In this document: positions 1 to 19,438 of the stretch, one piece after another
Numbering within the stretch: position 1 is the stretch's first letter
Layout: every line of letters starts with the position of its first letter
Source of the DNA: a virus
IMG/VR virus record: IMGVR_UViG_3300032249_000148
Location: 1 to 22,997 of that record
Length of the DNA stretch: 22,997 nt
Direction: 5' to 3' (one strand)
Program-made: the position numbers and the translations under genes
The notes under the pieces: model-generated
The model's database searches: none
The model's input: the letters and a program-made list of their open reading frames with translations, nothing else
What the model was told of the DNA's origin: nothing

Positions 1-2940
1 TCGTTCCGCTGCTCGTTTGATCTTCGCTTCGTTTACAGCGCGGATGTTATCAAGCTGTCTTTGCGCCCCTGCGGGGTCAATTATAGTAACGGGCGCTGGG
101 CCGCTAGACGTGGTAGCACGATCCGCTGCCTGACGTGCTGCTTCTGCATCATTAGCTGCTTGGTCTGCGGCGTCTTTCTCTGCTTTAGCTGTTTTTTCTT
201 GAGCTTTAGTAGTTAGCCCGACAAGCTGAAGTCTTTCCAAATTTTTACGTTGGATATCAAGCTGCCGATCATATTCCGCTACCGCATCTTTAGTTAAATT
301 TGCGCGTACCCACTCGTCTAATTTTTTAAGATCCGCTGCCGAAGTTTTATTATAATGCTTCGTATCTTTTTTAGATTCGACTTTCGTAAGATCAGATTCT
401 TCTTCCCGTTGTTCTTTTGTCAATCCAAGCTTTGGGCGAGCTATACTTTCAGCCCCAAAAACTATATCGTGCGCAAGATTGATCAGGTTATCTACCACCC
501 TTGGCATGGTGAAATAGCCCTTGAAGGTCGAATTAGCTTTCTTTTCAGCTACAATTGCAGCCCTATCCGAAGGTATACCCGTTTCCCTAGGCGCGTACAT
601 TTTGTACGGTAACCCAAGAAGTTCCTGCTGACTTCTAGCAATAGCCGGTACTTGGATATCAACTATGTGATTAAATAAATTCTGAGATAAGCTGTTCTGT
701 TTGTGTGCGTTTTTCCACAGAAGTTTAAGTTCTGGTTTTAACTTTTTCCATTCCGGTTCAAACTCATACTGTCTGTACTGTTCGTTCCATTCTTTTTCCG
801 GGGTATCTAATTTAACCCGCTGTCCGGGGGTCACAGGCTCCAGAACTTGCCTTCCAGCAGTTTCTTGTCTATGTGCCCTAACAATTTGATTTGCAAGTTC
901 AATTGAAGGTGGGTTTTGAGCCCACGTGTTTTGCAGTTTCTCTGACAGGTCGTCAAAAGCAGGCGCATCTTTAGGGGTAAAGTCGTCTTCATTCCACCGT
1001 TGACGTGGAGTTCCGGGTTCGTACTCACCTTCGTCTTTGGGGCGCACTGGGGCTGGGCGCGGCATCTTGTCCTGTGCGTGCGCGTACTGACCCATCACAT
1101 AGGCGTCATTTGTCCCAAATTGTTGAACAAAATTTTCATACACCCGCGTTAGATTTGCAAAAGCCTCTGGAGATTTTGTCTGGTTAAACGCTTGTAGGGC
1201 TTGTTCAAAACCCCGCTTACCCTCTGCTATTGCAGAGGGCTGTGTTGCTTCTCCCACTCCAGCTTGTTGAGAAGGTTGTTCAGCAGGTGCCACTCTAGAG
1301 GGTGGAGATGTTGCAACTCCTGCGGGGGGTACTCCTCCTTGGGGTTCGCTAGGTACATTAGGGCTTGCTCCACTTGGGGGAGTGAAAGTTGGAGCAGGTG
1401 TTGCGTCGGCTTGGACGTTAGGTTGGGCATTTTGTTGGGCCTGTTGCGTTGCTGCGGCGCGGTCTTGGGCTTCAATTTCCCGTTGAGCCATGGCGGCTTC
1501 GGACGCCGCTTTTTGTCTAGCTTGATACTCAGCAACTTGCTGCTCTTGTCGCCGTTGATTAGCTTCCTGCGCTTGCTGCAACGCAGCTTGTGCCAAAGCG
1601 GCGTTTGCTACTTCGTCATTTTGTACAGCTTCCCTAGCAGTAGCCGCGTTGGTTTGTTCTTCTAGAGACGGATCAGTTGAGGGAGCGGCAAATTTTACCG
1701 AAGCTCTTGTCTGCGGGTTGTCTTTGAGGACACCGTTCTGGACGAGCAGTTGGAACTCGTCCTCGGTAATAGCCTCTTTAGCTTTGCGCTTCTGCATAGC
1801 CGCTGCAAGATTCTCAGCGGGGCCGGGGCCAACAGATCCAGCAAGTTTAGTCTCGTTGAGGGGTAGCTCAGGCTGTTTTGCGGGGGTCTCCCGCATCGTC
1901 TGAACCAAAGCGCCCGGAGTACCAATAACCGTACCAGCAGCCGCACCCTTGGCAGCGGCGGTCAATAGCCGGTCTACATTTTTAGGATCAGAGAACCCAC
2001 CCGGAACGCCAGCAAGTTGCTCAGCAATTATATCAACTGATTCTTGGACAGTTTCAGTGGTACTCTCAGTAGCAGCAGTTTTGCCAATTTCTTTAGCAAG
2101 CCGCAACTTGAAACTCTCTGGCACGATGGTGGATCGTTCAGCAAGTTCTTTTGCTACTTCGGCTTGCCCACGTGCTCCTAGCTGACGCGCCAACCGTGCA
2201 GGGAGAGCACCATCAAGGAGGGCTTTAATCCCGCCAGCACCAAAAGCAAGTCCGGGCCTTAGTTCCCCGCCGGTCTCTTCGTAAATACCCGCAAAAGATT
2301 CAGGCGCGTTAATACCAAAACTACCTGTACCGATACCAACGCTCAGGCCAGTATCCCCAGCTTTTGCTCTGGCAGCGGGAGCGAGTCGGTTACCTAGGCG
2401 GGTAGCATATGCTTCAGCCGCCTCCCCAGCCAGACCACGTTGCGCCGCAGCACGAGCAGCAGCCGCTTCAACAGCACCTTTGGCAAGCCCACGCGCAGCA
2501 AGAGAGCCAGCCCCTCCGGTCAGCGCCATCAAACCTAGGTTGCCTACGTTTTCACCAACAGACTCTGCAATAAATCCGGGTATGTCTGAAACGCCACGAA
2601 CTTTATTAACAGATGAGAAAGACGTAGGGTATTGCTCTTCAAGCTCTTGGCGCTTTGCCTTACCCGTTTCCAAATACCTAGTGGCGGCTTCATCAAACCC
2701 TAGCGCAGACGCCCCAAGACCCATAGCCTCACTGCCGGAGGCACCGAGCCCACCAATTCCCCGTTTAAGAGAATTAGTAAACTGCCGCCCAAGAGGGATA
2801 TCCCTTGGGTCTGGGCGAGTCTCTAGGTCAATCTGTTTTAGGCGGTCCTGAATCTTTGCAATAGTTGCATAAATAAATTCATCGGAGTCCGTATCCTTAA
2901 AACCTAACGGACCTGCGCCGGGAACATTTACTAGCTTCAT
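1..2940 (-). CDS. N-terminal 980 residues of a giant polyvalent or ejected virion protein
   Basis: An uninterrupted frame from the ATG at 2940 to the window edge, with no stop, so the protein is longer than 980 residues. It begins MKLVNVPGAGPLGFKDTDSD. Residues about 55 to 160 hold Gly/Ala-rich helices (GRQFTNSLKRGIGGLGASGS, ESVGENVGNLGLMALTGGAG) with likely membrane activity. Ala-rich helices to about 360 include TESTTETVQESVDIIAEQLA. Residues about 424 to 505 are a Gln/Ala/Glu coiled coil and 505 to 573 a Pro-rich linker. The rest is charged helical sequence. The N terminus matches the start of very large phage proteins that carry enzyme domains further along. Any such domains lie outside the window. 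Confidence 0.85.
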   Translation of the reverse strand, partial: MKLVNVPGAGPLGFKDTDSDEFIYATIAKIQDRLKQIDLETRPDPRDIPLGRQFTNSLKRGIGGLGASGSEAMGLGASALGFDEAATRYLETGKAKRQELEEQYPTSFSSVNKVRGVSDIPGFIAESVGENVGNLGLMALTGGAGSLAARGLAKGAVEAAAARAAAQRGLAGEAAEAYATRLGNRLAPAARAKAGDTGLSVGIGTGSFGINAPESFAGIYEETGGELRPGLAFGAGGIKALLDGALPARLARQLGARGQAEVAKELAERSTIVPESFKLRLAKEIGKTAATESTTETVQESVDIIAEQLAGVPGGFSDPKNVDRLLTAAAKGAAAGTVIGTPGALVQTMRETPAKQPELPLNETKLAGSVGPGPAENLAAAMQKRKAKEAITEDEFQLLVQNGVLKDNPQTRASVKFAAPSTDPSLEEQTNAATAREAVQNDEVANAALAQAALQQAQEANQRRQEQQVAEYQARQKAASEAAMAQREIEAQDRAAATQQAQQNAQPNVQADATPAPTFTPPSGASPNVPSEPQGGVPPAGVATSPPSRVAPAEQPSQQAGVGEATQPSAIAEGKRGFEQALQAFNQTKSPEAFANLTRVYENFVQQFGTNDAYVMGQYAHAQDKMPRPAPVRPKDEGEYEPGTPRQRWNEDDFTPKDAPAFDDLSEKLQNTWAQNPPSIELANQIVRAHRQETAGRQVLEPVTPGQRVKLDTPEKEWNEQYRQYEFEPEWKKLKPELKLLWKNAHKQNSLSQNLFNHIVDIQVPAIARSQQELLGLPYKMYAPRETGIPSDRAAIVAEKKANSTFKGYFTMPRVVDNLINLAHDIVFGAESIARPKLGLTKEQREEESDLTKVESKKDTKHYNKTSAADLKKLDEWVRANLTKDAVAEYDRQLDIQRKNLERLQLVGLTTKAQEKTAKAEKDAADQAANDAEAARQAADRATTSSGPAPVTIIDPAGAQRQLDNIRAVNEAKIKRAAER

Positions 2941-4706
2941 CCACCAATACTCGACAGATAATCAGTGCCCATTGTCACGCCCGAACCCCCGCCACTTGTG
3001 CGAGTACCCCTAAAATAGTCATCTTTATACGCATCTTTAGCGGCTGCAACAGCGGCCAAAAACTTTGGATCAGTGGGCTTCATAGTTCCCATCTTAATAG
3101 CATTTAGCAGATTTTCCCCGCCTAGTTTTTTAAGACTAGCAATGTATTTTATCGCTTCGGAGTTACGCAAGGGGTCCATAAATATTTGGTCCGCGCGTTC
3201 GTCTACTTTGGCTTTATCTGAGACCGTAGGGAGATTTTTATCTTCCATCCCTTTCATACGCAAGGCAAGATTCATCAAACCCATCTGGCTAGTAAGCCCA
3301 GCTTTTTCAAGCGCGTGCTGATTTCTCATACCAGCAATCTCCAACGCATTACCCAGTTTAGCGCCTTCAATCTGCCGTTTAGTATCAGACCCAGCAACAT
3401 CTTTGAGCATTTCCGTGCTGGCTTTCTTTGCGTCTAAGTCAAATTTAGCTGCATCTTTCAAAGCGCGGTCGTGGTTAGCTAATTCAGTTAGAGCACCTTG
3501 ACGGTCGCCTTTCTCATCCAACATGCGAGCTTTAAGAAGATCCATTTGAGCTTGACGGCGTAGACGCTCAGCGGCGGCACGGGCAGCATCCGCTCTGTCG
3601 CTATAGTCAATACCTTCACTCACGGCACGGCCCAACGCAGGGCCGAATGCACCACGGCTGGACATCAACGCGCCGCCCATTTTACCGAGCATTTGATAGA
3701 ATTCGCTTTCTTTACCAGCGTTGTTTGCAGCTTTTTCTTCGTCAATCAGCTTTTGCATCATATCAAAGTGGGGCTTGGAATATTCTTGATTCTTTCTAAA
3801 CTTTTCGTTTATAAACGCTTCACGTTGCGCTTCCGACATAGCGGGAGATTTGTAATTTTCAAACTCTTGGGCGCGTTTAAGAGCACTTGCCCTGTATGCC
3901 TGCTGTTCGGGGGTTTCCCTCTCACTAAAGTCCGCAAGTCTTTTAGCGGCGGCAGAAAGTTCACTACCACCACTACCACGGCCACTAAATCCACCACCGC
4001 CACCTATACCCCCTGCCATTCTTGCAAGGTCGGCTAACCCACTAGACCTATCTGGAACTCTAATAATTTCGGGTTTACCTTCGTCTTTCTTAGCGTCTTC
4101 TTTGACGGCAGGTGGTACTTTCTTTTCCTCTTTAGGTGGACGTGGGTACGCACGGGGGTCAACAAGAGGGTTAAAGTCTTTGTTCTCGGGTTGTTCTTTA
4201 CCCGAACCCAATACAAGATTTTCCCAACCAGCGTATTGACTGGGTATAGGTTCTTTTGATCCTTCAGCAAACGCAATGATCCCACCCCCGGCCATCTTCT
4301 TCGGCCCTTGCATAGCAGGTAGTCCCATAATGGGATTAGGCTTTGCTTGCGGTGGCTGCTGTTGCTGCTGGGGTTGCGGTTGCGGTTGAGGCTGGGGTTG
4401 AGGCGCAGCCTGTTGCGGCATCGGTTGTTGGGGCGGCATCATACCCTGCTGAGGCATGGGCTGCTGAGGCTGTGGGCTAAGCGTCTGTACGGTCGAGTCC
4501 ATCACCGTGGGCATCTGAGGATTAGGCGCGTTCATAGCGGCTAACTCGTTCTGCATCTGCGCGCGGCGGCTCAACTCCAATCCCGCTAAAGTCTTTAGGG
4601 GGATGTCGCCAATAACCCGGTCGTTAGGAGTCTGAACAACTTGCGTCAGATACTGGGTCGGCATGTACCGCAGGTCGCGGCGGGTCTCTTCAAGTGTCGG
4701 TCCCAT
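2937..4706 (-). CDS. Probable internal virion protein, coiled-coil, with GGG motif
   Basis: A 589-residue protein, starting MGPTLEETRRDLRYMPTQYL, with an AAGGA site 6 bases upstream. Residues about 75 to 125 are Gln/Pro-rich. Around 136 to 150 is KKMAGGGIIAFAEGS, the shared GGG motif. A charged Pro/Lys linker and a Gly-rich patch (about 232 to 249) follow. Residues about 255 to 480 form long Ala/Glu/Arg helices (AARAAAERLRRQAQMDLLKA) that look like coiled coil. The C terminus reads KDAYKDDYFRGTRTSGGGSG. No enzyme motif is visible. The neighbours on both sides are large virion-like proteins, so an internal core or ejected protein is likely. Its stop overlaps the next ATG (ATGA). Confidence 0.78.
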   Translation of the reverse strand: MGPTLEETRRDLRYMPTQYLTQVVQTPNDRVIGDIPLKTLAGLELSRRAQMQNELAAMNAPNPQMPTVMDSTVQTLSPQPQQPMPQQGMMPPQQPMPQQAAPQPQPQPQPQPQQQQQPPQAKPNPIMGLPAMQGPKKMAGGGIIAFAEGSKEPIPSQYAGWENLVLGSGKEQPENKDFNPLVDPRAYPRPPKEEKKVPPAVKEDAKKDEGKPEIIRVPDRSSGLADLARMAGGIGGGGGFSGRGSGGSELSAAAKRLADFSERETPEQQAYRASALKRAQEFENYKSPAMSEAQREAFINEKFRKNQEYSKPHFDMMQKLIDEEKAANNAGKESEFYQMLGKMGGALMSSRGAFGPALGRAVSEGIDYSDRADAARAAAERLRRQAQMDLLKARMLDEKGDRQGALTELANHDRALKDAAKFDLDAKKASTEMLKDVAGSDTKRQIEGAKLGNALEIAGMRNQHALEKAGLTSQMGLMNLALRMKGMEDKNLPTVSDKAKVDERADQIFMDPLRNSEAIKYIASLKKLGGENLLNAIKMGTMKPTDPKFLAAVAAAKDAYKDDYFRGTRTSGGGSGVTMGTDYLSSIGG

Positions 4707-4715
4707 ATCTAGTCC

Positions 4716-5816
4716 TTAAGTCGTAGTTTTTGTAGCTGGCTGGCCGCTCAATTTATTAAGCCGCTCAAGAAGGCTTAGACCAGTCAGCGCACCACCAACA
4801 GTAGAATTTAGAGCGGAAGTAGGCTCGCCGTAAAAATTAGTGGTGGTCATTGGGTAGTTCTTAATGACGCTGTTGAGCCAATCAATTTGAGTCTTCGGGT
4901 AGTCCCGCTGTTCTTTGAACAAGTTGTAGTCGGAAGTCAGACCTTGCTGAGTAATGTCACGTTGTGTATCGCCAAGATCAGCCATCTGTTTGTTTGCAGC
5001 GAGTTGGTTAATTGCTAGGTTATTACCAAAATTGCCTTGGTCTTGCGCCGTTTCACCCGCAAGCTTAAGGTAGTTGAGCCCTTGATTGGACCCAAACTGC
5101 CCGGACTGTTCTTTAGCTTTTAGCGCGTCAAGCAGTCGGTTCTGGTCCGCGTTATACTGGGTTTGGGCAGCGCTATAGGCATTCTCATATCCCTTGCCGG
5201 TTATGTCGGCAAGTCTAGTACCTAGATTACGCTGGTTTTCCGCAGCAAGTAAGTTACCCCCACCACCCCCAAATCCGCCAGTCTTAATCAAGTTAGCTTG
5301 ATTCTTCACCTGCTCAATACCTGCGTTGCGCCTAGCTTCCGCAAGCTGTGGATTTAGAATCGTCGACAGATACGGGTTCATGTAGCTGTTAAGCGCGTTC
5401 TGATCAAACTGATTGTTGATCCCCGTTGTGTTAGACGTGAACGTCGTGCCCGTGTACGCGGGCTGGGTAGCCGCAGATTTGTACACGTCCTGCATGTTTG
5501 TAGTGGCGTTTGTCTGCGCCGTGTTAGGGCCGGTCAGGTTTTGGACACCCGTGAACGCTTTGTTCTGAAGATCTGATGCACCAGCAACGGTCTTCCCACC
5601 GTAGACTTGGTATGGATTGCCAGCCGCATCAATCGCAGCATTGACAATACCCCCGACAACGGGAGCAGCCCAGTTTGATACGGTAGTTTCTTGTACACCT
5701 GTGGCAACGGGAGCGGCCCCGGCAGCGGGGGCCGTAGTTGTGGTTGTGGTCGCGCCGCCCGCGTCAAAGTGTCGAACACCCATATTATCGGGGTAGAGCA
5801 AATTGTAAAGGCTCAT
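4716..5816 (-). CDS. Probable internal virion protein
   Basis: A 366-residue protein, starting MSLYNLLYPDNMGVRHFDAG at an ATG with an AAGGA site 5 bases upstream. A FDAGG motif is followed by a Thr/Ala-rich linker. Then comes a helical region (QFDQNALNSYMNPYLSTILN, AEARRNAGIEQVKNQANLIK) with a GGFGGGGGN break around residue 180 and long helices (LGTRLADITGKGYENAYSAA). Near the end is FKEQRDYPKTQIDWLNSVIK, a pattern I recognise from unnamed virion proteins of aquatic podoviruses. The role is likely in the internal core or in DNA ejection; the assignment rests on gene order and composition. Confidence 0.78.
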   Translation of the reverse strand: MSLYNLLYPDNMGVRHFDAGGATTTTTTAPAAGAAPVATGVQETTVSNWAAPVVGGIVNAAIDAAGNPYQVYGGKTVAGASDLQNKAFTGVQNLTGPNTAQTNATTNMQDVYKSAATQPAYTGTTFTSNTTGINNQFDQNALNSYMNPYLSTILNPQLAEARRNAGIEQVKNQANLIKTGGFGGGGGNLLAAENQRNLGTRLADITGKGYENAYSAAQTQYNADQNRLLDALKAKEQSGQFGSNQGLNYLKLAGETAQDQGNFGNNLAINQLAANKQMADLGDTQRDITQQGLTSDYNLFKEQRDYPKTQIDWLNSVIKNYPMTTTNFYGEPTSALNSTVGGALTGLSLLERLNKLSGQPATKTTT

Positions 5817-5824
5817 GGTAATCC

Positions 5825-8800
5825 TTACTTCGGCGTAAATTTAGCCGGGTTGATCTGCTTGCCCTGCTCTTTGTTGCCGGTGCGGGCGTGACGGATGCGG
5901 TCCATCATGGCATAAAGTTGTTTAGCACCGGCCTCAGAGTTGCCGTTTCCTAAATGAGATACCACGTCGGCAGGGATCACAAACTCACCACCGCTAAGTC
6001 TCGCCGGTTGCTTGTTGTCGATGGTAGCAGGAATTTTATCAGCCATGCCATCTTCGGCGCTCTTAAGATAGTGCAGCCCACCGCCTTTGGCGTACCCATC
6101 AATTTCTCCACCCTCGGCACGTTGGACCGGAGTGCCTTTAAGGGCTCCATACACCTGACCTTGGCTAAGACCGAGCCCCTGCATACCCATCGGACTAATA
6201 CCTTTAGGACGCCCTGCGTACCCAATAAGCCCACCAAGCCCAGCGGCCAGCAGCATCTTCATTAGGTCTGGGTTCTTTTTAGCCGCGTCGGATAACTGTT
6301 TGAAGACGTTAGAGGCAGAAGAAGATTTAGTGGGGGAGCCGGTGATTGCGGCGTCTTTGATGTCTTTTTGGTATTGCCCCGTTAGGTCTTTACCGCCGCC
6401 GTAGCTGGCGTTTTCGCTGGGCAGGCCGCGAAGATAACTGTTGATATCTTCTTCACGCGCGCTCTCATCGCCGTACGCCCAATCGTACCCGACGCTATCG
6501 CCGAGAGCATCAAAACCATAGTCACTAGGGGAACTAGCCCATGAGTTGTCGGCTGGGAGGGACCTAAGGTAGCTGTAGACATCTTCGTCAGGCATACTAC
6601 CGCCATCGTACCCGATACCTCTAAGTTCTATCGGACTATCAAAATCAGCGTACCCGCCGTCATAAAAATTAGTCTTCACTTCACCACCACCTTTTAGTCC
6701 TGTTTGGGTCCAACCGGCTGGGGGTTGCCATGTTCCAGTTGGGTCTGTGTAATACCGATTCGTTGACTGATTGAAATACTGTTTTGCCGCAGGGACGGTT
6801 GCAGCGGGGGCTTGTGTTGTAGCAACTGCTGGGGCTGGCGTTGTTGTAAGTGCTGGGGTTGACGCTGTTGTAAGTGCCGATATTTGCGCCGTTGTAATTG
6901 CCGGGACTTGTGTCGTTGCAATTGCCGAGATGTTTTGCGTTGGAAATATTGTACGCGTATTTGAAGTCGATAACGTCTGTAGACCTGCCGCTGGAGTTGT
7001 AGTTCTAGCAGGGGTGGTTGTCGTTGCTGGTTGGGTTGTAGTTGCCGGTGGGGCTGTAGCTGTAGTTGTTTGGGATGAGGCGTGCGAGGTGGGGCCAGTG
7101 TAAGGTTTTCTAGTTTCTCTAAATGTAGCAGTACCAATATTACGGTTCTCAACTTCGTCAAAATAGCTTAGTAAATCCTCACCATTGATTGAACTAAAGC
7201 CATAAGAATTACCTACACCAACCACTTTATGTAACGCTTGTAGCATCTCTTGAGCGGTCAGACCATAAGGATCTACACCGTAGCCACGCAGTACGGTTGC
7301 AACTTCATCGGGTCGTAGCCGTATATCAGGCGAAGACCGATTGTCCACAAACCCCGATAGGGCTTTTCTCAGTATTTCTTGCGTTGCTTCGATATCTGCT
7401 TCGGTCCCAATCGGAATGTTTGTAGTTCCAACTACTGTATACACTTCGGTGGGGTTTAGTCTAGCTAGTTCAACTTCTAATTGTTTTAAACTTAGACCAG
7501 TTGGATTTACACCAGCGTTTTTAAGAAAGTCTCTAGCTAACTTTGAACTAACAGTGCTAGTATTACGAGATGATGTAGTTCCGCCTGAAGAGAAATTTTC
7601 CACTTTACCACCGCCTTTTAAGTTTGTTTGAACCCAACCGGCAGGGGGTTGCCATGTCCCGGTAGAGTCTGTGTAGTATTGATTTGTTTGCGCGTTATAG
7701 TATTGCTTGGGTCGAGGAGCAGCTATAGACGTAGCTTGCTGAGAGGTGACGGCTGGAATATTTGCCGTAGCCATCGTAGCTGGGGCCATTGTCCTATTTT
7801 CTGGCGTGTTATACCAGTCAAAAAACTTCACGCCGCCTTGACCACCAGTTCCCGTCGCCCCAGTCTGACGCCAATAACGCGCTTCAGAAGTTGGCAGTGC
7901 TTGCAGTCCACGAGGTTCAATCGTAGTTATAGCAGGGGGGATTGTTGTTGGTGGGATTGTTGTTGGGGTTGTTGTTGGAAGCGTAGTGATGTTATCTGTT
8001 AGAAGCGTAGTGATTTGCCTTGATGAAAGCGTAGTAATTTTATCTGTTGGAAGCGTGGTGATCTTATCTGTTGGAAGCGTAGTGATCTTATCTGTTGGAA
8101 GCGTAGTGATCTTATCTGTTGCAAGCGTGGTGATCTTATCTGTTGGAAGCGTAGTGATCGTATCTGTTAGAAGCGTAGATGGGGGTGAGTATGGTGTATC
8201 TACAACCACCGTAAACACTGTGCTGGGATCTATTTTAGCTAGTTCATCACCTAATTGTTTTAAATTTAAACCGGCTGTATTTTTACCGGCGTTTTTAAGT
8301 GCGTTTCTAGCTAAAGTTTCGCCAACAGTGCTAGTATTACGAGGTCTTGTAGTTGTTCCACCCGGTGTTCCACCCGGTGTTCCACCCGTGGTTCCACCCG
8401 TGGTTCCGCCCGTGGTTCCGCCCTTGGTTCCATCCATGGTTCCGCCCGTGGTTCCGCCCGTTGTTCCGGGTGTAGGTAATGGGGGGCCAAGAAGATCAGA
8501 AATTAGCAATCCATTATTATTAGCAACAGTGGTTAATGTCGCAATTTGCGAGGGGGTTAATTGACTGGTAGTTTCCCCCTTATTATCAACTTTAGAATCA
8601 GCTTTAGAGTCAGCTTTAGAACCAGCTTTAGTTCCTAGATCTCCGGTAAGAAGACCGTTAGCATTGGCAAAATTAAAGGTGGCAACCTGTTCAGCAGTTA
8701 GTTGCGGAGTCCCTGTGGATGCTCCAGCGGGAGCACCGGTTTTAGCCCCAGAAGTAGTAAGAGGGTTATTCCCTACAATGTCAGCCACACGAAGAGAATT

Positions 8801-10699
8801 ATTTTCACCCCCAGTGAGATTAGTAGAGTCAGTAGGAAAACCTCTAGGCAATCTTGCCGTAGATTGCGGGATAGAAGTATCAGCTTCAAGACCGGGTTTA
8901 GTTACCGCGTACCTAACCCCATCAATGTTAACTGTAGTAAACGGGGTACTACTACTTTCATCTGCGGGTTCTAAAAATCTCCAGCCTTCTGGCAACGAGT
9001 AATTGCTTTTAGCAAACTGATCTGCAAGCTCATAGGCTTCAATAGTCCATCCGCCTAATGGCTCAGGGGTGCCGGGAGGGGCGTCCTGCTGCGATGCCCA
9101 ACTTCTATTAAGCCCTTGATCTACAAGAGTATTTAATCTCTCTAGCCTATCGGCTGGCGCTCCCGTAGTAACTATTCCACCATACCCAGTCTGGATATTA
9201 GAACCAGAACCAGATTGAACTCCTCCTTTGCTAACCGCGAGGTCGATAGATGGAATTTTTGGTTTGCCTGATGTGTTTGTAACCGCCGTATTCCCACCCG
9301 CGTCAGATATCCTAGTACCAAGATCGGCAACGGTCAGCCCTTCATTTATATTGGGGACGTTCTGCCCTACAGTTTTAAACCCCTCCATAATTGCGTTTGC
9401 TTCAGCATTACCGGTATTTCCAGAGGCTACTCGTACTGCGGCGTTTGCTGATCTATTTTCAATTGGAGCCGAACCGGGGGCTTTTGCGTTGGTTGTCTGG
9501 GCAAGACCTAAAGCCGCGTTGTATAAGGCAGTGGGGTTAGGGTTGGGGGAACTAAGCTGTTGCACCAAAGATGCAGCCCTACCAGCCATAACCGTGTCGG
9601 GGCTATTTTTAAGCTCCCCAGATAGTTGAAGAGCCAACCCATAGTCAGGGTTGTCAGACATCAAGGTGGTAGCAATCGTGGCAGCTTTAGAAAGCTCCGG
9701 CAGGGTGAAGCCGTTCTCACCCCCAACCTTAAACGTAGATAGTGTTACAGGTTTTCCGTCCGAACCTACAAGCGGTTTTCCATCCACATCTTTAAACTGA
9801 TAGTCACCCACCCCCCGCATTTGGCCGAGGGTCATCAACGCCCCCGGTATATTTCCAGTCTTTACAGCGTCAACAAACCGAAGACCAATAGCCGTTTCAT
9901 TAAATCCACCAGCACTGGCAAGGGTAGCCAGCCCGCTAACAACATTACCTTGATCAAATGCTTGATACGCTGTGTAAAGTTTAGCTACCCCACCCACAAT
10001 ACCGGGGTCCCCCGCCATAATAGGACCAGCGGTTCTTAGTACATCTCCAATATCTTTAATGTTTCCAGCGCCAGCTTGGAATGCTACGTTTCCTGCGGCT
10101 ACGTAAAGGGGTGGAACCCCACTAGCCATCAACGCTAAGTTAATAACAGGTATAATTGGCCCGAGGTCTTGCGCAAATGCGCCCCAACCAGATTTACTAT
10201 ACTGCTGAACTGGAACTGCAATTGTTGAACCATCAGCCTGTTGAATCGGCTGAAAATTATATTCGCTATATCCGTCACCTTTGTTCTCAGAACCAAACAT
10301 GCGGCCATAAGCGGAAATTGTCTGGTTATTAGTTTTGTTGTAGTATATTGGTAATTGTTCTTCTGGGATTATTGTCGCTGATTCGCCGCTCCCTGCTTCA
10401 TAAGCAGGGCGAGTTTCATACCGTACACCAATATCCCCAATACTCGTAACGCCGTAATCTTTTGCCAAAATTTTGGCAATGTTCTGCATGTGCGTGTCGG
10501 CGGACAGAGGAGACGCATTTTTGTAAACGTCCGCTTTCCCTTGGATTGCGCCCATCTGTTTGAGAAGGGTTTCATATCCGGTGTTCCATGTCGCACGATC
10601 TGCATCGGCAGCGGCGGTGCCCTCTATAATAGGCGCATATTCGCTGCGGGTATCTACGGTATCAGGTTCGATATCACCCGATTCTAAGTTTCGCGCCAT
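5825..10699 (-). CDS. Giant repeat-rich structural protein (1624 residues)
   Basis: I place the start at the ATG at 10699 (MARNLESGDIEPDTVDTRSE), one base after the preceding stop; an extension to 10759 would only read through that gene. Residues 177 to 265 hold hydrophobic, Gly/Ala-rich helices (LGPIIPVINLALMASG, GIVGGVAKLYTAYQAF), as in virion proteins that enter membranes. Residues about 590 to 1290 are disordered Thr/Gly/Pro sequence with short tandem repeats and two related helical modules (RNTSTV-x(n)-KNAG). Two Trp-rich modules (YYTDSTGTWQPPAGW) each end in a GGG motif. Residues 1375 to 1432 repeat SYLRSLP and SYLRGLP. The C terminus (SGGEFVIPADVVSHLG, KQLYAMMDRIRHART) is a recurrent phage domain with no known role. 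I infer an internal or ejected virion protein. Confidence 0.85.
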   Translation of the reverse strand: MARNLESGDIEPDTVDTRSEYAPIIEGTAAADADRATWNTGYETLLKQMGAIQGKADVYKNASPLSADTHMQNIAKILAKDYGVTSIGDIGVRYETRPAYEAGSGESATIIPEEQLPIYYNKTNNQTISAYGRMFGSENKGDGYSEYNFQPIQQADGSTIAVPVQQYSKSGWGAFAQDLGPIIPVINLALMASGVPPLYVAAGNVAFQAGAGNIKDIGDVLRTAGPIMAGDPGIVGGVAKLYTAYQAFDQGNVVSGLATLASAGGFNETAIGLRFVDAVKTGNIPGALMTLGQMRGVGDYQFKDVDGKPLVGSDGKPVTLSTFKVGGENGFTLPELSKAATIATTLMSDNPDYGLALQLSGELKNSPDTVMAGRAASLVQQLSSPNPNPTALYNAALGLAQTTNAKAPGSAPIENRSANAAVRVASGNTGNAEANAIMEGFKTVGQNVPNINEGLTVADLGTRISDAGGNTAVTNTSGKPKIPSIDLAVSKGGVQSGSGSNIQTGYGGIVTTGAPADRLERLNTLVDQGLNRSWASQQDAPPGTPEPLGGWTIEAYELADQFAKSNYSLPEGWRFLEPADESSSTPFTTVNIDGVRYAVTKPGLEADTSIPQSTARLPRGFPTDSTNLTGGENNSLRVADIVGNNPLTTSGAKTGAPAGASTGTPQLTAEQVATFNFANANGLLTGDLGTKAGSKADSKADSKVDNKGETTSQLTPSQIATLTTVANNNGLLISDLLGPPLPTPGTTGGTTGGTMDGTKGGTTGGTTGGTTGGTPGGTPGGTTTRPRNTSTVGETLARNALKNAGKNTAGLNLKQLGDELAKIDPSTVFTVVVDTPYSPPSTLLTDTITTLPTDKITTLATDKITTLPTDKITTLPTDKITTLPTDKITTLSSRQITTLLTDNITTLPTTTPTTIPPTTIPPAITTIEPRGLQALPTSEARYWRQTGATGTGGQGGVKFFDWYNTPENRTMAPATMATANIPAVTSQQATSIAAPRPKQYYNAQTNQYYTDSTGTWQPPAGWVQTNLKGGGKVENFSSGGTTSSRNTSTVSSKLARDFLKNAGVNPTGLSLKQLEVELARLNPTEVYTVVGTTNIPIGTEADIEATQEILRKALSGFVDNRSSPDIRLRPDEVATVLRGYGVDPYGLTAQEMLQALHKVVGVGNSYGFSSINGEDLLSYFDEVENRNIGTATFRETRKPYTGPTSHASSQTTTATAPPATTTQPATTTTPARTTTPAAGLQTLSTSNTRTIFPTQNISAIATTQVPAITTAQISALTTASTPALTTTPAPAVATTQAPAATVPAAKQYFNQSTNRYYTDPTGTWQPPAGWTQTGLKGGGEVKTNFYDGGYADFDSPIELRGIGYDGGSMPDEDVYSYLRSLPADNSWASSPSDYGFDALGDSVGYDWAYGDESAREEDINSYLRGLPSENASYGGGKDLTGQYQKDIKDAAITGSPTKSSSASNVFKQLSDAAKKNPDLMKMLLAAGLGGLIGYAGRPKGISPMGMQGLGLSQGQVYGALKGTPVQRAEGGEIDGYAKGGGLHYLKSAEDGMADKIPATIDNKQPARLSGGEFVIPADVVSHLGNGNSEAGAKQLYAMMDRIRHARTGNKEQGKQINPAKFTPK
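6652..6788 (-). repeat. Trp-rich module, second copy
   Basis: Codes for KQYFNQSTNRYYTDPTGTWQ followed by PPAGWTQTGLKGGGEVKTNF and YDGG. It pairs with the copy at 7579 to 7707. The two copies share most residues but their DNA has drifted, which suggests an old duplication under selection. Confidence 0.88.
7425..7572 (-). repeat. Helical module, second copy (RNTSTVSSKLARDFLKNAG)
   Basis: This stretch of the giant protein gene codes for RNTSTVSSKLARDFLKNAGV through LSLKQLEVELARLNPTEVYT. It is clearly related to the segment at about 8187 to 8345 (RNTSTVGETLARNALKNAGK, LNLKQLGDELAKIDPSTVFT), so about 50 residues have been duplicated. A more distant third copy may lie at about 7225 to 7330 (LRPDEVATVLRGYGVDPYGL). 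Confidence 0.85.
7579..7707 (-). repeat. Trp-rich module, first copy
   Basis: Codes for KQYYNAQTNQYYTDSTGTWQ followed by PPAGWVQTNLKGGGKVENFS and SGG. The copy at 6652 to 6788 is nearly the same, so the segment has been duplicated with the helical module. The PPAGW and KGGG elements are constant. Confidence 0.88.
7981..8172 (-). repeat. Eight tandem 24-bp repeats coding for ITTLPTDK-type units
   Basis: Eight consecutive 24-base units, plus strand consensus GCGTAGTGATCTTATCTGTT followed by GGAA. They encode an 8-residue unit (ITTLPTDK) with small changes, for example ITTLATDK and ITTLSSRQ. Units 3 to 8 (8029 to 8172) differ from the consensus by at most about three bases, unit 1 by two, unit 2 by more. 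They lie inside the 1624-residue protein gene, in frame. Confidence 0.95.
8187..8345 (-). repeat. Helical module, first copy (RNTSTVGETLARNALKNAG)
   Basis: First copy in protein order of the roughly 50-residue helical module. It lies between the 12-bp linker repeat and the 24-bp repeat array and matches the copy at 7425 to 7572 at most positions of its RNTSTV, LKNAG and LKQL cores. Confidence 0.85.
8358..8465 (-). repeat. Nine tandem 12-bp repeats coding for GGTT-type units
   Basis: Nine consecutive 12-base units (plus strand CCACCCGTGGTT and variants) encode a flexible Gly/Thr linker of GGTT, GGTM-D, GGTK and GGTP type. They are in frame within the 1624-residue protein gene and lie just before the first RNTSTV helical module in the protein. 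Confidence 0.95.
8591..8626 (-). repeat. Three short 12-bp repeats coding for a Ser/Lys/Ala/Asp linker
   Basis: Three 12-base units (plus strand TTTAGAATCAGC, TTTAGAGTCAGC, TTTAGAACCAGC) encode SKAD-type repeats (GSKADSKADSKVDN) in the 1624-residue protein. A degenerate fourth copy follows at 8627. Confidence 0.85.
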
Positions 10700-10700
10700 T

Positions 10701-11030
10701 TTAACCCACTTTCCAATTTGTGCCATCTGAATACACAGGCACATTAGTTGACCCGCCACCGGCTACCGTGGTGCCAAATGTGGACACAGAAGAATCTGTT
10801 ACAAACGCTCTAGACCCTACACCGGCAGTTGCTGCACTGGGTAGGTCGGCTACGGCCATAGGCACATTAGCTTTTAACTGACCAATAACCTTATCCCGCT
10901 CGTTGAAGTACAACCGCAAGACGCTACTAAACTGATCAAAATACTGCCGGTCGTACGTGTTTGGGGCGAGGGGCAGGCTGGGCGCAACAGCCTGAAACAG
11001 TAGATATTCTGACGTAATGAGGTAGCTCAT
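10701..11030 (-). CDS. Small tail-associated structural protein
   Basis: A 109-residue protein, starting MSYLITSEYLLFQAVAPSLP. The first half is helical (RQYFDQFSSVLRLYFNERDK, VIGQLKA). The second half is a short beta segment (GSRAFVTDSSVSTFGTTVAG, GGSTNVPVYSDGTNWKVG) that recurs at the C terminus of many phage tail and fibre proteins. The ATG overlaps the nozzle stop as ATGA. The placement after the nozzle protein and before the giant proteins suggests a tail tip or a linker piece, which is inference. Confidence 0.8.
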   Translation of the reverse strand: MSYLITSEYLLFQAVAPSLPLAPNTYDRQYFDQFSSVLRLYFNERDKVIGQLKANVPMAVADLPSAATAGVGSRAFVTDSSVSTFGTTVAGGGSTNVPVYSDGTNWKVG

Positions 11031-13150
11031 CGTCTGCCATCCTGACGTATATCAATCCGTGGATACCCTAACTGCCACTGGACCCCGAGACCGGTAGATG
11101 CAATCTTCATAATCATTTGACGCCCACGCACCCGAATATATACTTGCCCTGTAAATTGTTCAATCGGTACTTCGGCTGTACGGGTAACTGTAGCGTTGTC
11201 ACTTCCGCCAACAGAGGTAGGACTGTTATACCCTGACCCGGAGTTCTGCATAGGGATTAACGTCATGACGGCGGTGGGGGAGGCTGCGGTAGACCCGTTA
11301 AAAGTTACGTCGGGCAGCATCCGGTATACAAACCCAAATCGGTCACCATCGTCAATATCAAATTCTGCTGAAGAGATATACGCCTCAATTGGCAGCGTAG
11401 TGGCGGTTTCTCCGTTATCGACCCCTAATTCATGGTTTACTAGGTTACTACTATAAGTAGCGGCAACGGGGTAATCACGCAGGCCAGAGTCTAACCACGC
11501 CGTGCGTGCCAGCGTTCCATAGTACCAAATCCCCTGCCCGCCCTTACCGTCAGGCTCAAGATAGTTGTATATAACATAACGGTCAATGGTCGTGTTTGGA
11601 TTGCTTACCGTACCCGTGCCATCCGGCCCTGTGATTGAGCAGTAGAACCACCAGACTTCGTTAAATCCTTCGTTCGTCCCGCAGAATATCTGCTCATTCT
11701 GCCCAAGATTTATGTCTTGAAAAATATATTTACGCAGGTCGCAGTTGAGCGTGTTGACGCGCCCGTCGTACATGTAGAACTTATCGATCCCCATCCAGAA
11801 CAGTCGGCCTGATGCAAGGATCGCCGCATTTTGGCTAACAATTGAAATATTGTCGCCAAGAATATCTTGTCTCCAGACCGCTGCTGGCCCAACGTACTGC
11901 AACGAAAAAATCGCGGAGTCCGTCAATACAACTATCTCTTGGCGAGTTTGAACCGCCGTAATAATTTCAGACCCGTGAGAGAGCACCGCGTAGTTAGCTT
12001 GGCTGTCTTGGCCTAGAGTCCAATTATATGGGTCTTGGAAGTTTGACCACCGGATGAGCATGGGGTTTAACGTACCGGAACCGTAGTCGTTACACCCAAA
12101 AGCAAAGATAAACCGGTTGCTAGATACAAATATATTATTTTGTACCGTAGGGACATCCACTATTTTTGAAATATAAACATTAGCACCTGTCGATGATGTG
12201 TTTACGTACGTCGAACCTCCCTGAGTCAACGATAGATTAGCAGTTACTCCAACAACATTTTCTAAGTAATATGTCGTGTTTGCCGTAATGCCTGTGGGTA
12301 GTGACCCCCCTGTACCAGCCGCAAATTGGACCGGAGTACCGACAGTAAATACCGTAGATAGAGTTACTACCGTAGGCGAGGCGCTGGTAAATGAAACTAA
12401 CCCACCTAAAGAAGATAACAAGACACCTCGTGTGCCAGTCCCGCCCGCTGCACTCCAATAGTAGATACCGCCGCCGCGAGGGGCAAAGATAAGATCTTCT
12501 CCGTAGTTGTTTTGGTTCCATAGTCTAAATTGAGTGGCGGTTGTTGACCCACTACCCCACACCCCACTGCCCCATGTGCCCGCACCCCACCCAGAAATTG
12601 GAAGTTGAATTGAAGCGCCAATGCTAATTTGATACGCAGCGACAACGGCGGACCCACCATATGTACCCGCAGTAAGAGGCGAGGCTAGGGTGATGGAGTA
12701 AGAATTAACATTAATATATGTGATGGCGTATTCAGCATTGAAAACGGCGGTTGTTGAGCCGCTGAACGTAACATAGTCCCCAGTAATAGCGCCGTGAGAT
12801 GCAGCGGTAACCGTTACGGTTGTAGTCCCGTTGGCTGAAAAAGGATTAGCACCTAGAGTAGTGGTAGCACGAAGTGGGGTAATGTCGTAGTATGCGCCGC
12901 CGTTAGAGATGTAAAACTTGAGGTTTGTACCTACCCCGATCAAATTCTGAAATGCTAACGTCACCCAATTCCACAAAGACCGGCAGAGACCAAGAAACGT
13001 ACTGCTAGATATACGTTGCCAACCGCCAACTTTCTCGGGGGTGCCTTGGCGAAACCGGACCTTATCACTATCAAACCAACCGTTTTCGCTGGCGTAGCGG
13101 GTGTTTTCTTTATTTACACCGGGGCGAAGCTGGAGTTTCTTGAGTGGCAT
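11027..13150 (-). CDS. Tail nozzle or hub protein (T7 gp12 / P22 gp10-like)
   Basis: A 707-residue protein. It starts MPLKKLQLRPGVNKENTRYA then WFDSDKVRFRQGTPEKVGGW, a well-known start of short-tailed phage nozzle proteins. Residues about 105 to 170 and 250 to 320 look like beta-sandwich inserts. Between these is a WG-rich stretch (GWGAGTWGSGVWGSGS) followed by RLWNQNNYGEDLIFAPRGGG, typical for the family. The rest is a beta-propeller-like region (RFIFAFGCNDYGSGTLNPML, RWSNFQDPYNWTLG, HGSEIITAVQTRQEIVVLTD). Such proteins form the hexameric tube below the adaptor through which DNA leaves. The start overlaps the holin stop, so lysis genes sit between adaptor and nozzle here. Confidence 0.87.
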   Translation of the reverse strand: MPLKKLQLRPGVNKENTRYASENGWFDSDKVRFRQGTPEKVGGWQRISSSTFLGLCRSLWNWVTLAFQNLIGVGTNLKFYISNGGAYYDITPLRATTTLGANPFSANGTTTVTVTAASHGAITGDYVTFSGSTTAVFNAEYAITYINVNSYSITLASPLTAGTYGGSAVVAAYQISIGASIQLPISGWGAGTWGSGVWGSGSTTATQFRLWNQNNYGEDLIFAPRGGGIYYWSAAGGTGTRGVLLSSLGGLVSFTSASPTVVTLSTVFTVGTPVQFAAGTGGSLPTGITANTTYYLENVVGVTANLSLTQGGSTYVNTSSTGANVYISKIVDVPTVQNNIFVSSNRFIFAFGCNDYGSGTLNPMLIRWSNFQDPYNWTLGQDSQANYAVLSHGSEIITAVQTRQEIVVLTDSAIFSLQYVGPAAVWRQDILGDNISIVSQNAAILASGRLFWMGIDKFYMYDGRVNTLNCDLRKYIFQDINLGQNEQIFCGTNEGFNEVWWFYCSITGPDGTGTVSNPNTTIDRYVIYNYLEPDGKGGQGIWYYGTLARTAWLDSGLRDYPVAATYSSNLVNHELGVDNGETATTLPIEAYISSAEFDIDDGDRFGFVYRMLPDVTFNGSTAASPTAVMTLIPMQNSGSGYNSPTSVGGSDNATVTRTAEVPIEQFTGQVYIRVRGRQMIMKIASTGLGVQWQLGYPRIDIRQDGRR

Positions 13151-13587
13151 TACTTGCTCGCTACACCCTTGTGCTTCTCAAATGACCGCATACCGCCGAA
13201 CCCCAACAGCCCAGCCAGCAGTGTCATGAGTTGCTCAACATCCAGATCCGGTGGGGGGTTCAACTCTTTAGGGATTATGTCATAACCTTGACCAAAAGTC
13301 CAACACCACTGCATCAGGGGGTAGCCAAGGAATTGGTAAGCCAAGCCAAGAACCCCAACCCAGCCGACAGCAGGACGCCAACCAGAGACAAATACGCTAG
13401 GATTCGCCGCTTCAACCACATTGACTTCGACCTGAGCCAAGTCGGTTGTCTGGTCAATCCTCTTTTCCTCAAGGTCAAGCCTGCGCTCTTCCAACGCCAT
13501 TTCGAGGCGTTCTTTATCCGTTGTGTATAGCGAGTCCGCAACCTTGCCAACGCCTTCAATTATCGACCCTATACCCATTAAGTCCAT
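13150..13587 (-). CDS. Holin, 3TM-type
   Basis: A 145-residue protein. An N-terminal amphipathic segment (MDLMGIGSIIEGVGKVADSL) is followed by a charged helix (residues 22 to 60, LEMALEERRLDLEEKRID). Then comes VSGWRPAVGWVGVLGLAYQF (about residues 67 to 86), a hallmark of the holin family with three proposed membrane segments. A second hydrophobic helix (EQLMTLLAGLLGFGG, about 118 to 132) ends with the family's usual MRSFEKHKGV. Holins of this kind make membrane lesions that let the endolysin reach the wall. Adjacency to the endolysin gene supports it. The stop overlaps the next gene's ATG (TAATG). Confidence 0.9.
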   Translation of the reverse strand: MDLMGIGSIIEGVGKVADSLYTTDKERLEMALEERRLDLEEKRIDQTTDLAQVEVNVVEAANPSVFVSGWRPAVGWVGVLGLAYQFLGYPLMQWCWTFGQGYDIIPKELNPPPDLDVEQLMTLLAGLLGFGGMRSFEKHKGVASK

Positions 13588-14096
13588 TACTTGAGTCCGT
13601 GCAAGGTTCGGTTGATCCAGCCGAGTAAGAACTTGGACTGGCCTCGGTCTTTGTTGCAGATTTGCGCGTACCGGCTAATCTTGGCGAGGGCATAGGCTGG
13701 CAAAAACTTCTCCACCGTACAAATGTTCAACCGTTCAAGGGTTTTTGGTCCGATTGCACCGTCTGGGGTTGTTCCGACGATAAGCTGGGCGAGCTTAGAG
13801 GCGATCCCGACTCCAGTGTTGACGGCAAAGTTGAAGATTGTCTCGGCAATAGCTTGGTTCGTAAGGTCGTCACCTCGGATGCGATCCCAGAAATTAGACT
13901 TGTAAAACTCACGAACCATAGGAGTAGCCGATCCAAAATCTTTGCGATCAATGTACTGCCACCCTGTCCAGTCTGGGTTTGGTTTTCTTGCGATCCCTGC
14001 ATAGGTCATACCTCCCCGGTCGCCCGGAATGTTGGTTAGTTGGTACCCACCCTCGTCACGGATCATTTTTTCAAAGGCTTGCTCAAAATTAGCCAT
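13587..14096 (-). CDS. Endolysin, glycoside hydrolase family 108 muramidase
   Basis: A 169-residue protein. The ATG at 14096 gives MANFEQAFEKMIRDEGGYQL; the DEGGY motif with catalytic Glu15 defines family 108, whose members cut the glycan strands of peptidoglycan. The GDRGGMTYAGIA segment follows as in relatives. The C-terminal part (VGTTPDGAIGPKTLERLNIC) matches the small peptidoglycan-binding domain usually fused in this family, and the length is normal. There is no signal peptide, so release would depend on the holin encoded next. The start overlaps the nuclease gene by 8 bases, and the stop overlaps the holin start as TAATG. Confidence 0.93.
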   Translation of the reverse strand: MANFEQAFEKMIRDEGGYQLTNIPGDRGGMTYAGIARKPNPDWTGWQYIDRKDFGSATPMVREFYKSNFWDRIRGDDLTNQAIAETIFNFAVNTGVGIASKLAQLIVGTTPDGAIGPKTLERLNICTVEKFLPAYALAKISRYAQICNKDRGQSKFLLGWINRTLHGLK

Positions 14097-14523
14097 CACC
14101 GTGCATCCTTATATACTCATTCCTAAGGAACGTCACTTTTTTGCGCCCGTCGTGCCGCTTGACTCTACCCAAGGCTGGCGGGTTGTTCAAGTATTCTGCG
14201 GCTCGCAGGATCATGTCCGGGTCATCATCAAAGCTACCTAAAGCCGTGTTACACCGCACACACAAAATCCCACGAACATCATCAGAGTCGTGGCAGTGGT
14301 CTACTGCAAACTTGTACTGCTTGAGCTTGAGGGGTTTGTGGCAAATAGCGCAATTATACCCCTGAAGTTTCAACAGGAAGTCATAATCTGATGGGGACAA
14401 CCCAAAACGGTCAAGACGGTTTACGTCTGACTTGCACTTGCTACAGAGAAAATAATCTTTGCGCCCGTGGATGGTTAGGTCTTCTCGGAGAAACTCTCCA
14501 CGGCAAACGGCACAGAACAGCAT
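14089..14523 (-). CDS. HNH nuclease, recombination endonuclease VII-type
   Basis: A 144-residue protein with two four-cysteine metal sites. The N-terminal one uses C4, C7, C27 and C30. The second, C58, C61, C88 and C91, frames the nuclease motif D75-H76-C77-H78 and DVRGILCVRCN, ending with N92. This matches the phage T4 endonuclease VII family, where the motif aspartate, histidine and asparagine do catalysis and the cysteines bind structural zinc. The family includes Holliday-junction resolvases and free-standing mobile HNH nucleases. Its lone position between fibre and endolysin genes and the hairpin in front favour the mobile-nuclease reading; a resolvase role remains possible. It overlaps the endolysin start by 8 bases. 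Confidence 0.88.
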   Translation of the reverse strand: MLFCAVCRGEFLREDLTIHGRKDYFLCSKCKSDVNRLDRFGLSPSDYDFLLKLQGYNCAICHKPLKLKQYKFAVDHCHDSDDVRGILCVRCNTALGSFDDDPDMILRAAEYLNNPPALGRVKRHDGRKKVTFLRNEYIRMHGDG

Positions 14524-14530
14524 TGGAATA

Positions 14531-14554
14531 CCCCCGGTGGGTCGGCACCGGGGG
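14531..14554 (-). promoter_or_regulatory. Perfect 9-bp GC-rich hairpin covering the nuclease gene's ribosome-binding region
   Basis: On the minus strand, CCCCCGGTG pairs with CACCGGGGG across a 6-base loop. The second arm ends 7 bases before the ATG of the endonuclease gene, and its GGGGG run is the only purine-rich stretch at ribosome-binding distance. A TATTCC sequence follows, not a T tract, so a standard intrinsic terminator is unlikely. The hairpin would hide the start region when the message is transcribed from upstream. T4 homing endonuclease genes such as I-TevI are known to be controlled by hairpins of this kind; the parallel here is inference. Confidence 0.7.
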
Positions 14555-14561
14555 CCAGACC

Positions 14562-14780
14562 TTAGTTATCGGTCTGTTCGTCTTCTTCAGACTCTTCTTC
14601 AGCTTCTTCAGCCATAACAGCAACGTCAAAGTGAGCGTCAACCGTGGCCGAGAACAATTCGGTCAGCGTGAAGCGGCTAACACCGTTAGCATCTGCAACG
14701 GCATAGGTAGCAGCGATCAAAGCTTGCAGCGCGTCAACCGGCTCCGAACCTTCAAGAACTTCAATAATCTGGTCTTTCAT
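14562..14780 (-). CDS. Small acidic protein of unknown function
   Basis: A 72-residue protein, MKDQIIEVLEGSEPVDALQA, with a helical middle (LIAATYAVADANGVSRFTLT) and an acidic tail (AEEAEEESEEDEQTDN). I chose the ATG at 14780 because a GGAG site lies 6 bases upstream; the frame is open further to 14813 but without support. The gene is isolated by gaps on both sides, a 111-base gap before and a 38-base hairpin-bearing gap after. The acidic tail could be a DNA mimic or a binding partner for the many basic proteins encoded here; both ideas are speculation. It does not resemble a holin or nuclease inhibitor that I know. Confidence 0.72.
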   Translation of the reverse strand: MKDQIIEVLEGSEPVDALQALIAATYAVADANGVSRFTLTELFSATVDAHFDVAVMAEEAEEESEEDEQTDN

Positions 14781-14891
14781 GACAAACTCCATTCGTTGGT
14801 AGGGTGGGAGCACCCCGGCGGGCGGGTGACCCCTCTAAAATCTTACAATTTACAGAAGACAGGAAAGTTACTTCTGCGGGTTCTGTATTTT
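14781..14891 (-). other. Intergenic gap at the fibre-to-lysis boundary
   Basis: This 111-base gap is the longest noncoding stretch in the window. Read on the minus strand, it holds a weak inverted repeat (CAGAAG with CTTCTG, at 14871 to 14876 and 14853 to 14858) and a short GC-rich inverted repeat (CACCC at 14824 to 14828 and GGGTG at 14811 to 14815). Neither is followed by a T tract, so neither is a convincing terminator. I see no clear promoter. It may contain a phage-specific promoter that cannot be recognised by eye. Confidence 0.4.
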
Positions 14892-15284
14892 TTACTGAAG
14901 GATTTTATTGGCAGACGCTTGGGAAATTACCGACGCGCCAACCAACAACGCCAAAACGTCCGTGGTGTTAGCTAACTCTTGAGGTGTCGCCATCTCTTGT
15001 TTAGCCGTAACAACTTCAGGTGCAGAGTTGCTATCCCACTTCACCCGTTCTGACAAAGTTAAACCCGCACGGACATTGTTAGAAGTCCATGTGCGTGGCG
15101 CAGGGGGAGCGGGTGGAGGAGGTTCTGGTTTAACCAATTGTCCGCCTACCCACCCATCTCCATTTACAGCATCGTCGGGCACTTCGGTGTTGTAAAACAC
15201 CGCGACATCTGGGTGGTAAATCTCTGACGGGTTGGCGTGAGCAACATCTCGAATACGATTGTCTTCAATCCATGCGTATTTCAT
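14892..15284 (-). CDS. Fibre-associated or tail-fibre assembly-like protein
   Basis: A 130-residue protein. It starts MKYAWIEDNRIRDVAHANPS and EIYHPDVAVFYNTEVPDDAV, then GDGWVGG, which is a recurrent N-terminal domain of small phage proteins encoded after fibres. A Pro-rich hinge (about residues 52 to 64) leads to a helical C terminus (AGLTLSERVKWDSNSAPEVV and TDVLALLVGASVISQASANK). The layout resembles tail-fibre assembly chaperones, and the place directly after the adhesin gene fits, but the family is not certain. An AAGGA ribosome-binding site lies 9 bases before the ATG. Confidence 0.8.
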   Translation of the reverse strand: MKYAWIEDNRIRDVAHANPSEIYHPDVAVFYNTEVPDDAVNGDGWVGGQLVKPEPPPPAPPAPRTWTSNNVRAGLTLSERVKWDSNSAPEVVTAKQEMATPQELANTTDVLALLVGASVISQASANKILQ

Positions 15285-15286
15285 GA

Positions 15287-16743: not shown

Positions 16744-16752
16744 CAATATTCC

Positions 16753-17727: not shown

Positions 17728-17736
17728 TTTAACCCT

Positions 17737-17907: not shown

Positions 17908-17914
17908 GTATACC

Positions 17915-19432: not shown

Positions 19433-19438
19433 GGACTC

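Follow-up and report, generated by a model that had tools for sequence, protein, structure and literature searches.

The locus described here raises the question of what a phage does with a protein of 1624 residues that is filled with repeats and copied modules. The source is an IMG/VR record of a freshwater bacterial virus, and the whole stretch analysed, called the window below, comprises 22,997 bases. An initial annotation had taken the product, here named P0001, for a virion-like protein built from nested duplications.

Gene and domain organisation

The initial annotation placed the gene correctly at 5825-10699 and omitted its strand, which is the minus strand. The reading frame opens at an ATG at position 10699 and closes at a stop at 5825-5827, and the plus strand over the same interval is packed with stops. 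A GTG 60 bases upstream would yield 1644 residues; the ATG, which sits one base past the end of the preceding gene, is preferred because the relatives align from it. P0001 matches none of the PHROG families, phrog_4287 included, and neither the PHROG nor the Pfam scan gave a match to fibres, lectins or depolymerases. Its modules and the neighbouring genes are given in Table 1.

Table 1. Neighbouring genes and internal modules of P0001, by position in the window.
Feature	Position	Strand	Evidence or remark
Giant protein cut by the record end	1..2940	-	first 578 residues 62% identical to the giant protein of locus L003
589-aa protein of the same module	2937..4706	-	49% identical to the 612-aa protein of L003 in the same place
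DNA-ejection-protein family phrog_4287, next gene downstream of P0001	4716..5816	-	E 3.2e-7
P0001, 1624 aa	5825..10699	-	open frame from ATG 10699 to stop 5825-5827
C-terminal domain (DGMADKIPA...GEFVIPADVVSHLGNG...), residues 1541-1624	5828..6079	-	profile, 150.6 bits
SYLRGLP segment copy 2, residues 1418-1432	6404..6448	-	Smith-Waterman
SYLRSLP segment copy 1, residues 1372-1386	6542..6586	-	Smith-Waterman
Trp-rich module copy 2, GGG end, residues 1306-1350	6650..6784	-	duplication score; AlphaFold three-stranded meander
Second GLQxLxTS copy, residues 1235-1250	6950..6997	-	Smith-Waterman alignment
Helical module copy 3, partial, residues 1134-1158	7226..7300	-	profile match, 30.7 bits, i-Evalue 1.1e-11
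Helical module copy 2, residues 1048-1090	7430..7558	-	profile match, 75.1 bits
Trp-rich module copy 1, GGG end, residues 998-1040	7580..7708	-	duplication score
GLQxLPTSxxRYW...FFDWYxTPENR segment, residues 928-977	7769..7918	-	kept in relatives
Tandem array, TDKITTLP units, 24 bp x 8.6	7973..8178	-	TRF
Helical module copy 1, residues 790-832	8204..8332	-	profile match, 72.7 bits
Tandem array, TGGT units, 12 bp x 9.4	8355..8467	-	TRF
Tandem array, SKAD units, 12 bp x 3.9	8585..8631	-	TRF
Conserved N-terminal half, residues 37-417	9449..10591	-	matched by 15/16 N-terminal-alignment loci, repeats aside
Gly/Ala-rich hydrophobic helices, residues 172-293	9821..10186	-	helices in low-confidence AlphaFold model
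109-aa gene between hub and P0001	10701..11030	-	order shared by L003, L004, L005
Tail hub/stabilization-protein family phrog_3287, upstream	11027..13150	-	E 3.1e-52

Within the N-terminal half, residues 38-228 are the most widely kept stretch, and two relatives (L005 and L019) match this half only up to residue 228. A scan of genome contigs for the N-terminal domain found no relative. Hydrophobic Gly/Ala helices had been proposed near the N terminus. With the hydropathy cut of 1.2 used, this holds for a single segment, residues 182-200 (mean 1.69), while the other helices are weaker and stay below the cut. The three short tandem arrays that had been noticed are all recovered by TRF, and weaker arrays appear at 6807-7059 and 7936-7978.

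Structure prediction was confident for the small Trp-rich module, whose second copy forms a three-stranded meander with pLDDT values of 89-94 over the first three ten-residue blocks from residue 1300. The other AlphaFold models are poor: residues 1-430 reach a mean pLDDT of 55.1, with blocks up to 83 within residues 40-170, and residues 1300-1624 a mean of 56.2. Fold matches of the first model are mostly helical, with Z <=8.3, no viral match is as good as E 0.001, and both models were set aside. The resemblance of the Trp-rich module to MbtH-like proteins is too weak for a claim; the best row (2pst) has Z 3.0, rmsd 3.3 and 46 aligned residues, every row has Z <5, and Pfam MbtH is not matched among the 41 members scanned. 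PDB searches with the profiles of the N- and C-terminal regions found no relative (one row only, E 0.82), and the profile of the ejection family found no match there.

Internal duplications

Copy pairs were aligned by Smith-Waterman and their scores compared with those of 500 shuffles of one partner. By this measure the duplications of the helical, Trp-rich and SYLRSLP modules, all proposed in the initial annotation, are borne out. The helical pair scores 137 (shuffle maximum 51), the region comprising the GLQ segment and the Trp-rich module 220 (maximum 66), and the SYLRSLP segment 48 (maximum 27). A further pair that had escaped notice, QLTxxQ...NGLLxxDL, scores 59 against a maximum of 38. 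The duplication claim rests on these alignments and shuffles, since a BLASTP search of P0001 against itself printed no off-diagonal match.

The helical and Trp-rich modules had been read as parts of one copied unit of roughly 200 residues. Their order, helix followed by Trp, is indeed repeated, but the size differs: the GLQ copies (at residues 931 and 1239) and the Trp copies (1000 and 1308) are both spaced by 308 residues, helical copies 1 and 2 by 258. Nor was this one clean copy event, because a third helix copy lies in between. Nucleotide identity is 78% for the helical copies, which use the same codon at 25 of 29 conserved residues, and 73% for the Trp copies, with the same codon at 15 of 24. 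For the SYLRSLP copies, the nucleotide alignment was out of register and was dropped.

Relatives and length variation

Searches of IMG/VR returned 5 loci with the whole protein and 16 with an alignment of the N-terminal region. With the alignment of the C-terminal region, the best 80 of at least 473 confirmed loci were analysed, and the C-terminal domain, already pointed out in the initial annotation, is real and widespread. Removal of 13 duplicates left 67 non-redundant loci; as these are drawn from the best 80 of 473, all fractions given for them describe the closest part of the family.

Eleven full-length members were compared, ranging from 848 to 1624 residues. Across the family the C-terminal domain is constant and the N-terminal domain mostly so, and the Thr-rich middle varies. 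Three members (L005, L019, L028) retain the residues up to about 228 and diverge after this point, and in L027 and L030 the N-terminus is also largely different. P0001 is the only one of the eleven with two Trp-rich modules. L012 and L017 carry two GLQ motifs ahead of the C-terminal part and one Trp module, a pattern which suggests a shared copying of the unit from GLQ to GGG, followed by loss.

The number of TDKITTLP-type units does vary among relatives, from seven in the window through six in L004 and five in L009 (where the count is cut by the contig end) to four in L012 and L017. In five of seven proteins compared, the units resemble one another more closely within the protein than across proteins, as slippage would give; these five are not independent cases, because the units of L012 and L017 are identical. 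The ALTTAQ repeat of Pfam (PF20080) passes its cut-off in five of the eight relatives scanned (P0002, L010, L012, P0004, L030) and stays below it in L022 (23.5), L018 and L009. P0001 itself does not pass, with a score of 18.3 under the curated cut-off of 26.4. Among the papers searched, none contains the word ALTTAQ. In another relative (L008, 4430-6832), the reading frame enters dozens of prolines right where the contig stops, which may reflect a repeat or an effect of the assembly.

Genome neighbourhood and gene fusion

The function of P0001 is assigned from its genome context. Two features of the flanking genes extend Table 1: the later part of the L003 giant matches DarB-like antirestriction and virion RNA polymerase families, and the window hub matches proteins annotated as "stabilization" or "constituent protein" in other phages. 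The stabilization name is also borne by P22 gp10. The window hub (11027-13150) carries about 80 extra residues (around 255-333) that are missing from its 621-626-aa homologues in L001, L010, L019 and L030.

The tie between the C-terminal domain and phrog_4287 is close. Both lie in one open reading frame in 24 of the 67 non-redundant loci; in 33 further loci the phrog_4287 gene is directly adjacent to the gene with the C-terminal domain, and in 8 it is found at a distance of 365-416 bases. Two loci end at a contig edge, and in all 65 others the ejection family is fused or downstream. The hub lies upstream in 43 of the 67 loci and was not found in 6, despite more than 6 kb of upstream sequence.

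A longer relative (G001, 55,778 bases) shows the wider order of genes: terminase, portal, major head protein, structural proteins, hub, the P0001 relative, ejection protein, the 612-aa protein and the giant. The giant, DarB-like and virion-RNA-polymerase-like, closes the module, and a primase-like gene lies beyond it on the opposite strand. Among 19 of its 53 listed reading frames and the giant, no tail tube, sheath or baseplate family was matched; one structural reading frame has an additional match to a family of tail fibers, and another to a family of tail proteins.

Two further observations concern the window. A gene of the endonuclease VII family (14089-14523) adjoins endolysin and holin genes. 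The motif [FY]xxGG (aromatic-xx-Gly-Gly) occurs 20 times in 22 window reading frames (4716-22682), compared with 7.4 expected by shuffling; several copies stand near the ends of small virion-module proteins, and 6 of the 20 fall in a Gly-rich protein at 15287-16342. The motif is possibly a targeting or cleavage signal.

Counterparts in named phages

When whole P0001 was compared with named phages, only its C-terminus was matched. The C-terminal profile finds DSL-LC04 (E 6.3e-7), GB2A gp065c (3e-11), MinM2 and HTVC027P gp82 among annotated phages, and in all four the ejection-family gene directly follows. HTVC023P gp79 is matched weakly (E 0.093), with one gene between it and the ejection family. 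CRP-902, MJing1 and phiM5 possess the ejection family, and their C-terminal domain search gave no significant match. In phiM5 this family is represented by gp27 (E 5.2e-15), which GenBank describes as detected in the phage particle and as a putative tailspike. PMC10386132, which deals with LUZ24-like podoviruses and counts phiM5 among their relatives, describes internal virion genes as more divergent and mosaic; PMC10149686 relates CRP-902 to the HTVC023P group.

The proteins of DSL-LC04 (WJZ48115.1, 759 aa, "tail tape measure protein") and of Caulobacter phage GB2A (gp065c, 580 aa, "tail length tape measure protein") resemble P0001 in the C-terminal match and in their place before the ejection-family gene. 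By eye, they also have repeats or a Thr/Pro-rich middle and Gly/Ala-rich helices. They differ in being shorter and without a match to the N-terminal, helical and Trp-rich modules of P0001 at E 1e-3. In Synechococcus phage MinM2 (WEV89209.1, 294 aa, "calcium-binding protein") and its Planktothrix phage equals, the C-terminal 97 residues are 41% identical to P0001 and the gene order is the same, whereas the repeat-rich middle and the N-terminal domain are absent.

The ejection (pilot) proteins of podoviruses, such as T7 gp14-gp16 and P22 gp7, gp16 and gp20, are located after the tail genes, as is P0001, and have no sequence match to it in PHROGs or PDB. Large size and a mosaic make-up are ascribed to this class in PMC8954989.

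A probable ejection protein

Taken together, we consider it probable that P0001 is packaged inside the virion of a freshwater phage, probably one with a short tail, and is ejected from it; its C-terminus would serve for docking and its middle as a spacer of variable length. The observations behind this reading are the gene itself, its duplications, the constant ends around a variable middle, the adjacency and fusion, and the operon context; from these we infer presence in the virion, ejection, membrane contact, the spacer role and the tail type. The term "virion-like" of the initial annotation is well supported by genome context and by the fusions, and its suggestion of a large ejected protein fits the phrog_4287 gene next door and the fusion of the C-terminal domain to that family.

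The protein would then be organised as an N-terminal domain with Gly/Ala hydrophobic helices, a Thr-rich, repeat-filled spacer with small helical and beta modules, and a C-terminal docking domain. This last domain would bind the phrog_4287 protein, perhaps also the hub or portal, so that P0001 is packaged and leaves with the ejection protein. During ejection, the hydrophobic N-terminal half may touch or enter the host envelope. The flexible middle would set the reach, and its length would change by slippage in the 12- and 24-bp arrays and by module duplication.

The detection of phiM5 gp27 in the particle counts in favour of this reading, as do the pairing with the ejection family in MinM2, DSL-LC04, GB2A and HTVC027P and the lack of tail tube, sheath and baseplate matches among the G001 reading frames scanned. 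Against it count that the name "ejection protein" derives from PHROG annotation and that phiM5 gp27 is itself a putative tailspike, as well as the missing C-terminal match in CRP-902, MJing1 and phiM5, the six loci without a hub, the single hydrophobic segment, the lack of any PHROG match to P0001 itself, the restriction of the locus counts to the best 80 of a capped list, and the motif of HTVC103P gp79, whose gene lies between those for portal and capsid. For GB2A the indications diverge. Table 1 of PMC11053796 lists a tape measure protein for the GB2A cluster, and neither tubular nor internal virion proteins, which speaks against a simple podovirus reading; the match of GB2A gp064c to phrog_4287 (E 1.6e-9) speaks for it.

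Resemblance to tape measure proteins

P0001 might instead be a tape measure protein, the tail being longer than assumed and the repeat-rich middle acting as a ruler. Besides the naming of the DSL-LC04 and GB2A proteins and the GB2A cluster entry in the table just cited, profile matches, not noticed in the initial annotation, point in this direction. Of the 41 sequences in the C-terminal alignment, as many as 5 match a single PHROG family of tail length tape measures at E <=0.01 (best 7.1e-5). The counterparts in DSL-LC04 (5.9e-9), GB2A (8.1e-8) and HTVC027P match such families too, that of DSL-LC04 five of them and one family of unknown function. By tblastn, the C-terminus of DSL-LC04 matches siphovirus tape measures, mostly with about 60% identity over roughly 45 residues. 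The proteins of Vibrio phage V-YDF132, Arthrobacter phage Persistence and Rhodococcus phage GuyFagieri, which share this segment, are 1279-1738 aa long and, unlike P0001, are encoded in long-tail gene clusters, and in Persistence and GuyFagieri the segment is internal, not terminal.

A first C-terminal profile, built from viral contigs only, gave 7.9 bits for GuyFagieri and 13.3 for HTVC103P gp79 against 6.5 for the best of 800 shuffles, and V-YDF132 and Persistence did not exceed that best shuffle. With five intermediates added (MinM2, DSL-LC04, GB2A, HTVC027P, HTVC023P), the tape measures rose to 16.0-23.9 bits and all four targets, HTVC103P gp79 included, to 16.0-29.4, the best of 800 shuffles reaching 3.9. 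This gain is not independent, because the four targets had been picked by the DSL-LC04 search; the PHROG scans are independent. HTVC103P gp79 (L110, 4930-6225), encoded between portal and capsid genes, ends in a GPGTGTSDSIPA...GEFV segment and matches tape measure families. Its location indicates that the C-terminal segment is not confined to ejection and has spread beyond the tail.

That P0001 itself is a tape measure nevertheless seems unlikely to us. The gene stands between the hub and the ejection-family gene, not behind tail tube and chaperone genes as in Persistence and GuyFagieri, and PHROG scans of the window upstream of P0001 found neither a tail tube nor an assembly chaperone gene. 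The common stretch covers about 45 residues, the window's own C-terminal sequence matches no tape measure family, and the Thr-rich middle varies nearly twofold in length among relatives.

The initial annotation had also suggested a surface filament, a proposal that gained no positive support. In such an adhesin-like protein, the Thr-rich repeats, which pass the PF20080 cut-off in the relatives named above, would form a stalk. We regard this as quite improbable given the fusions of the C-terminal domain to the ejection family, the position of the gene outside the tail-fibre-like genes at 15287-17727 and the lack of any fibre, lectin or depolymerase match in P0001. About as improbable, finally, is an internal protein associated with the head or portal, packaged but not ejected, whose C-terminal domain would be a general virion-targeting tag: the place of the motif-bearing HTVC103P gp79 and the recurrence of aromatic-xx-Gly-Gly motifs in several window proteins would suit it, but the ejection family follows or is fused in every one of the 65 loci whose downstream side is visible.

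Implications for the family

Among the reading as an ejected protein and the resemblance to tape measures, the latter is not new as such, for DSL-LC04 and GB2A already carry that annotation; what the present analysis contributes are the fusions with phrog_4287 and the modular protein family that underlies the resemblance. Among the papers listed by searches on tape measures, podoviruses and ejection, no title or abstract opening describes this C-terminal link, though it may be in print. To our knowledge, comparisons of short-tailed phage pilot proteins with long-tailed phage tape measures usually concern their function. As a tentative and rather doubtful extension, the C-terminal domain may be a portable docking module common by descent to the tape measures of long-tailed and the ejection proteins of short-tailed phages. 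On this view, P0001 would correspond to a tape measure in which the ruler was lost and a Thr-rich spacer prone to slippage was gained; the length of this spacer might tune the reach of the ejection conduit.

At least 473 stretches encode relatives of the C-terminal domain, uncharacterised so far, which the gene fusions now tie to DNA ejection. Because length varies nearly twofold within a set of close relatives, the spacer idea lends itself to direct tests. If the tape measure resemblance reflects descent, it would connect short-tailed phage pilot proteins with long-tailed phage tape measures at the sequence level.
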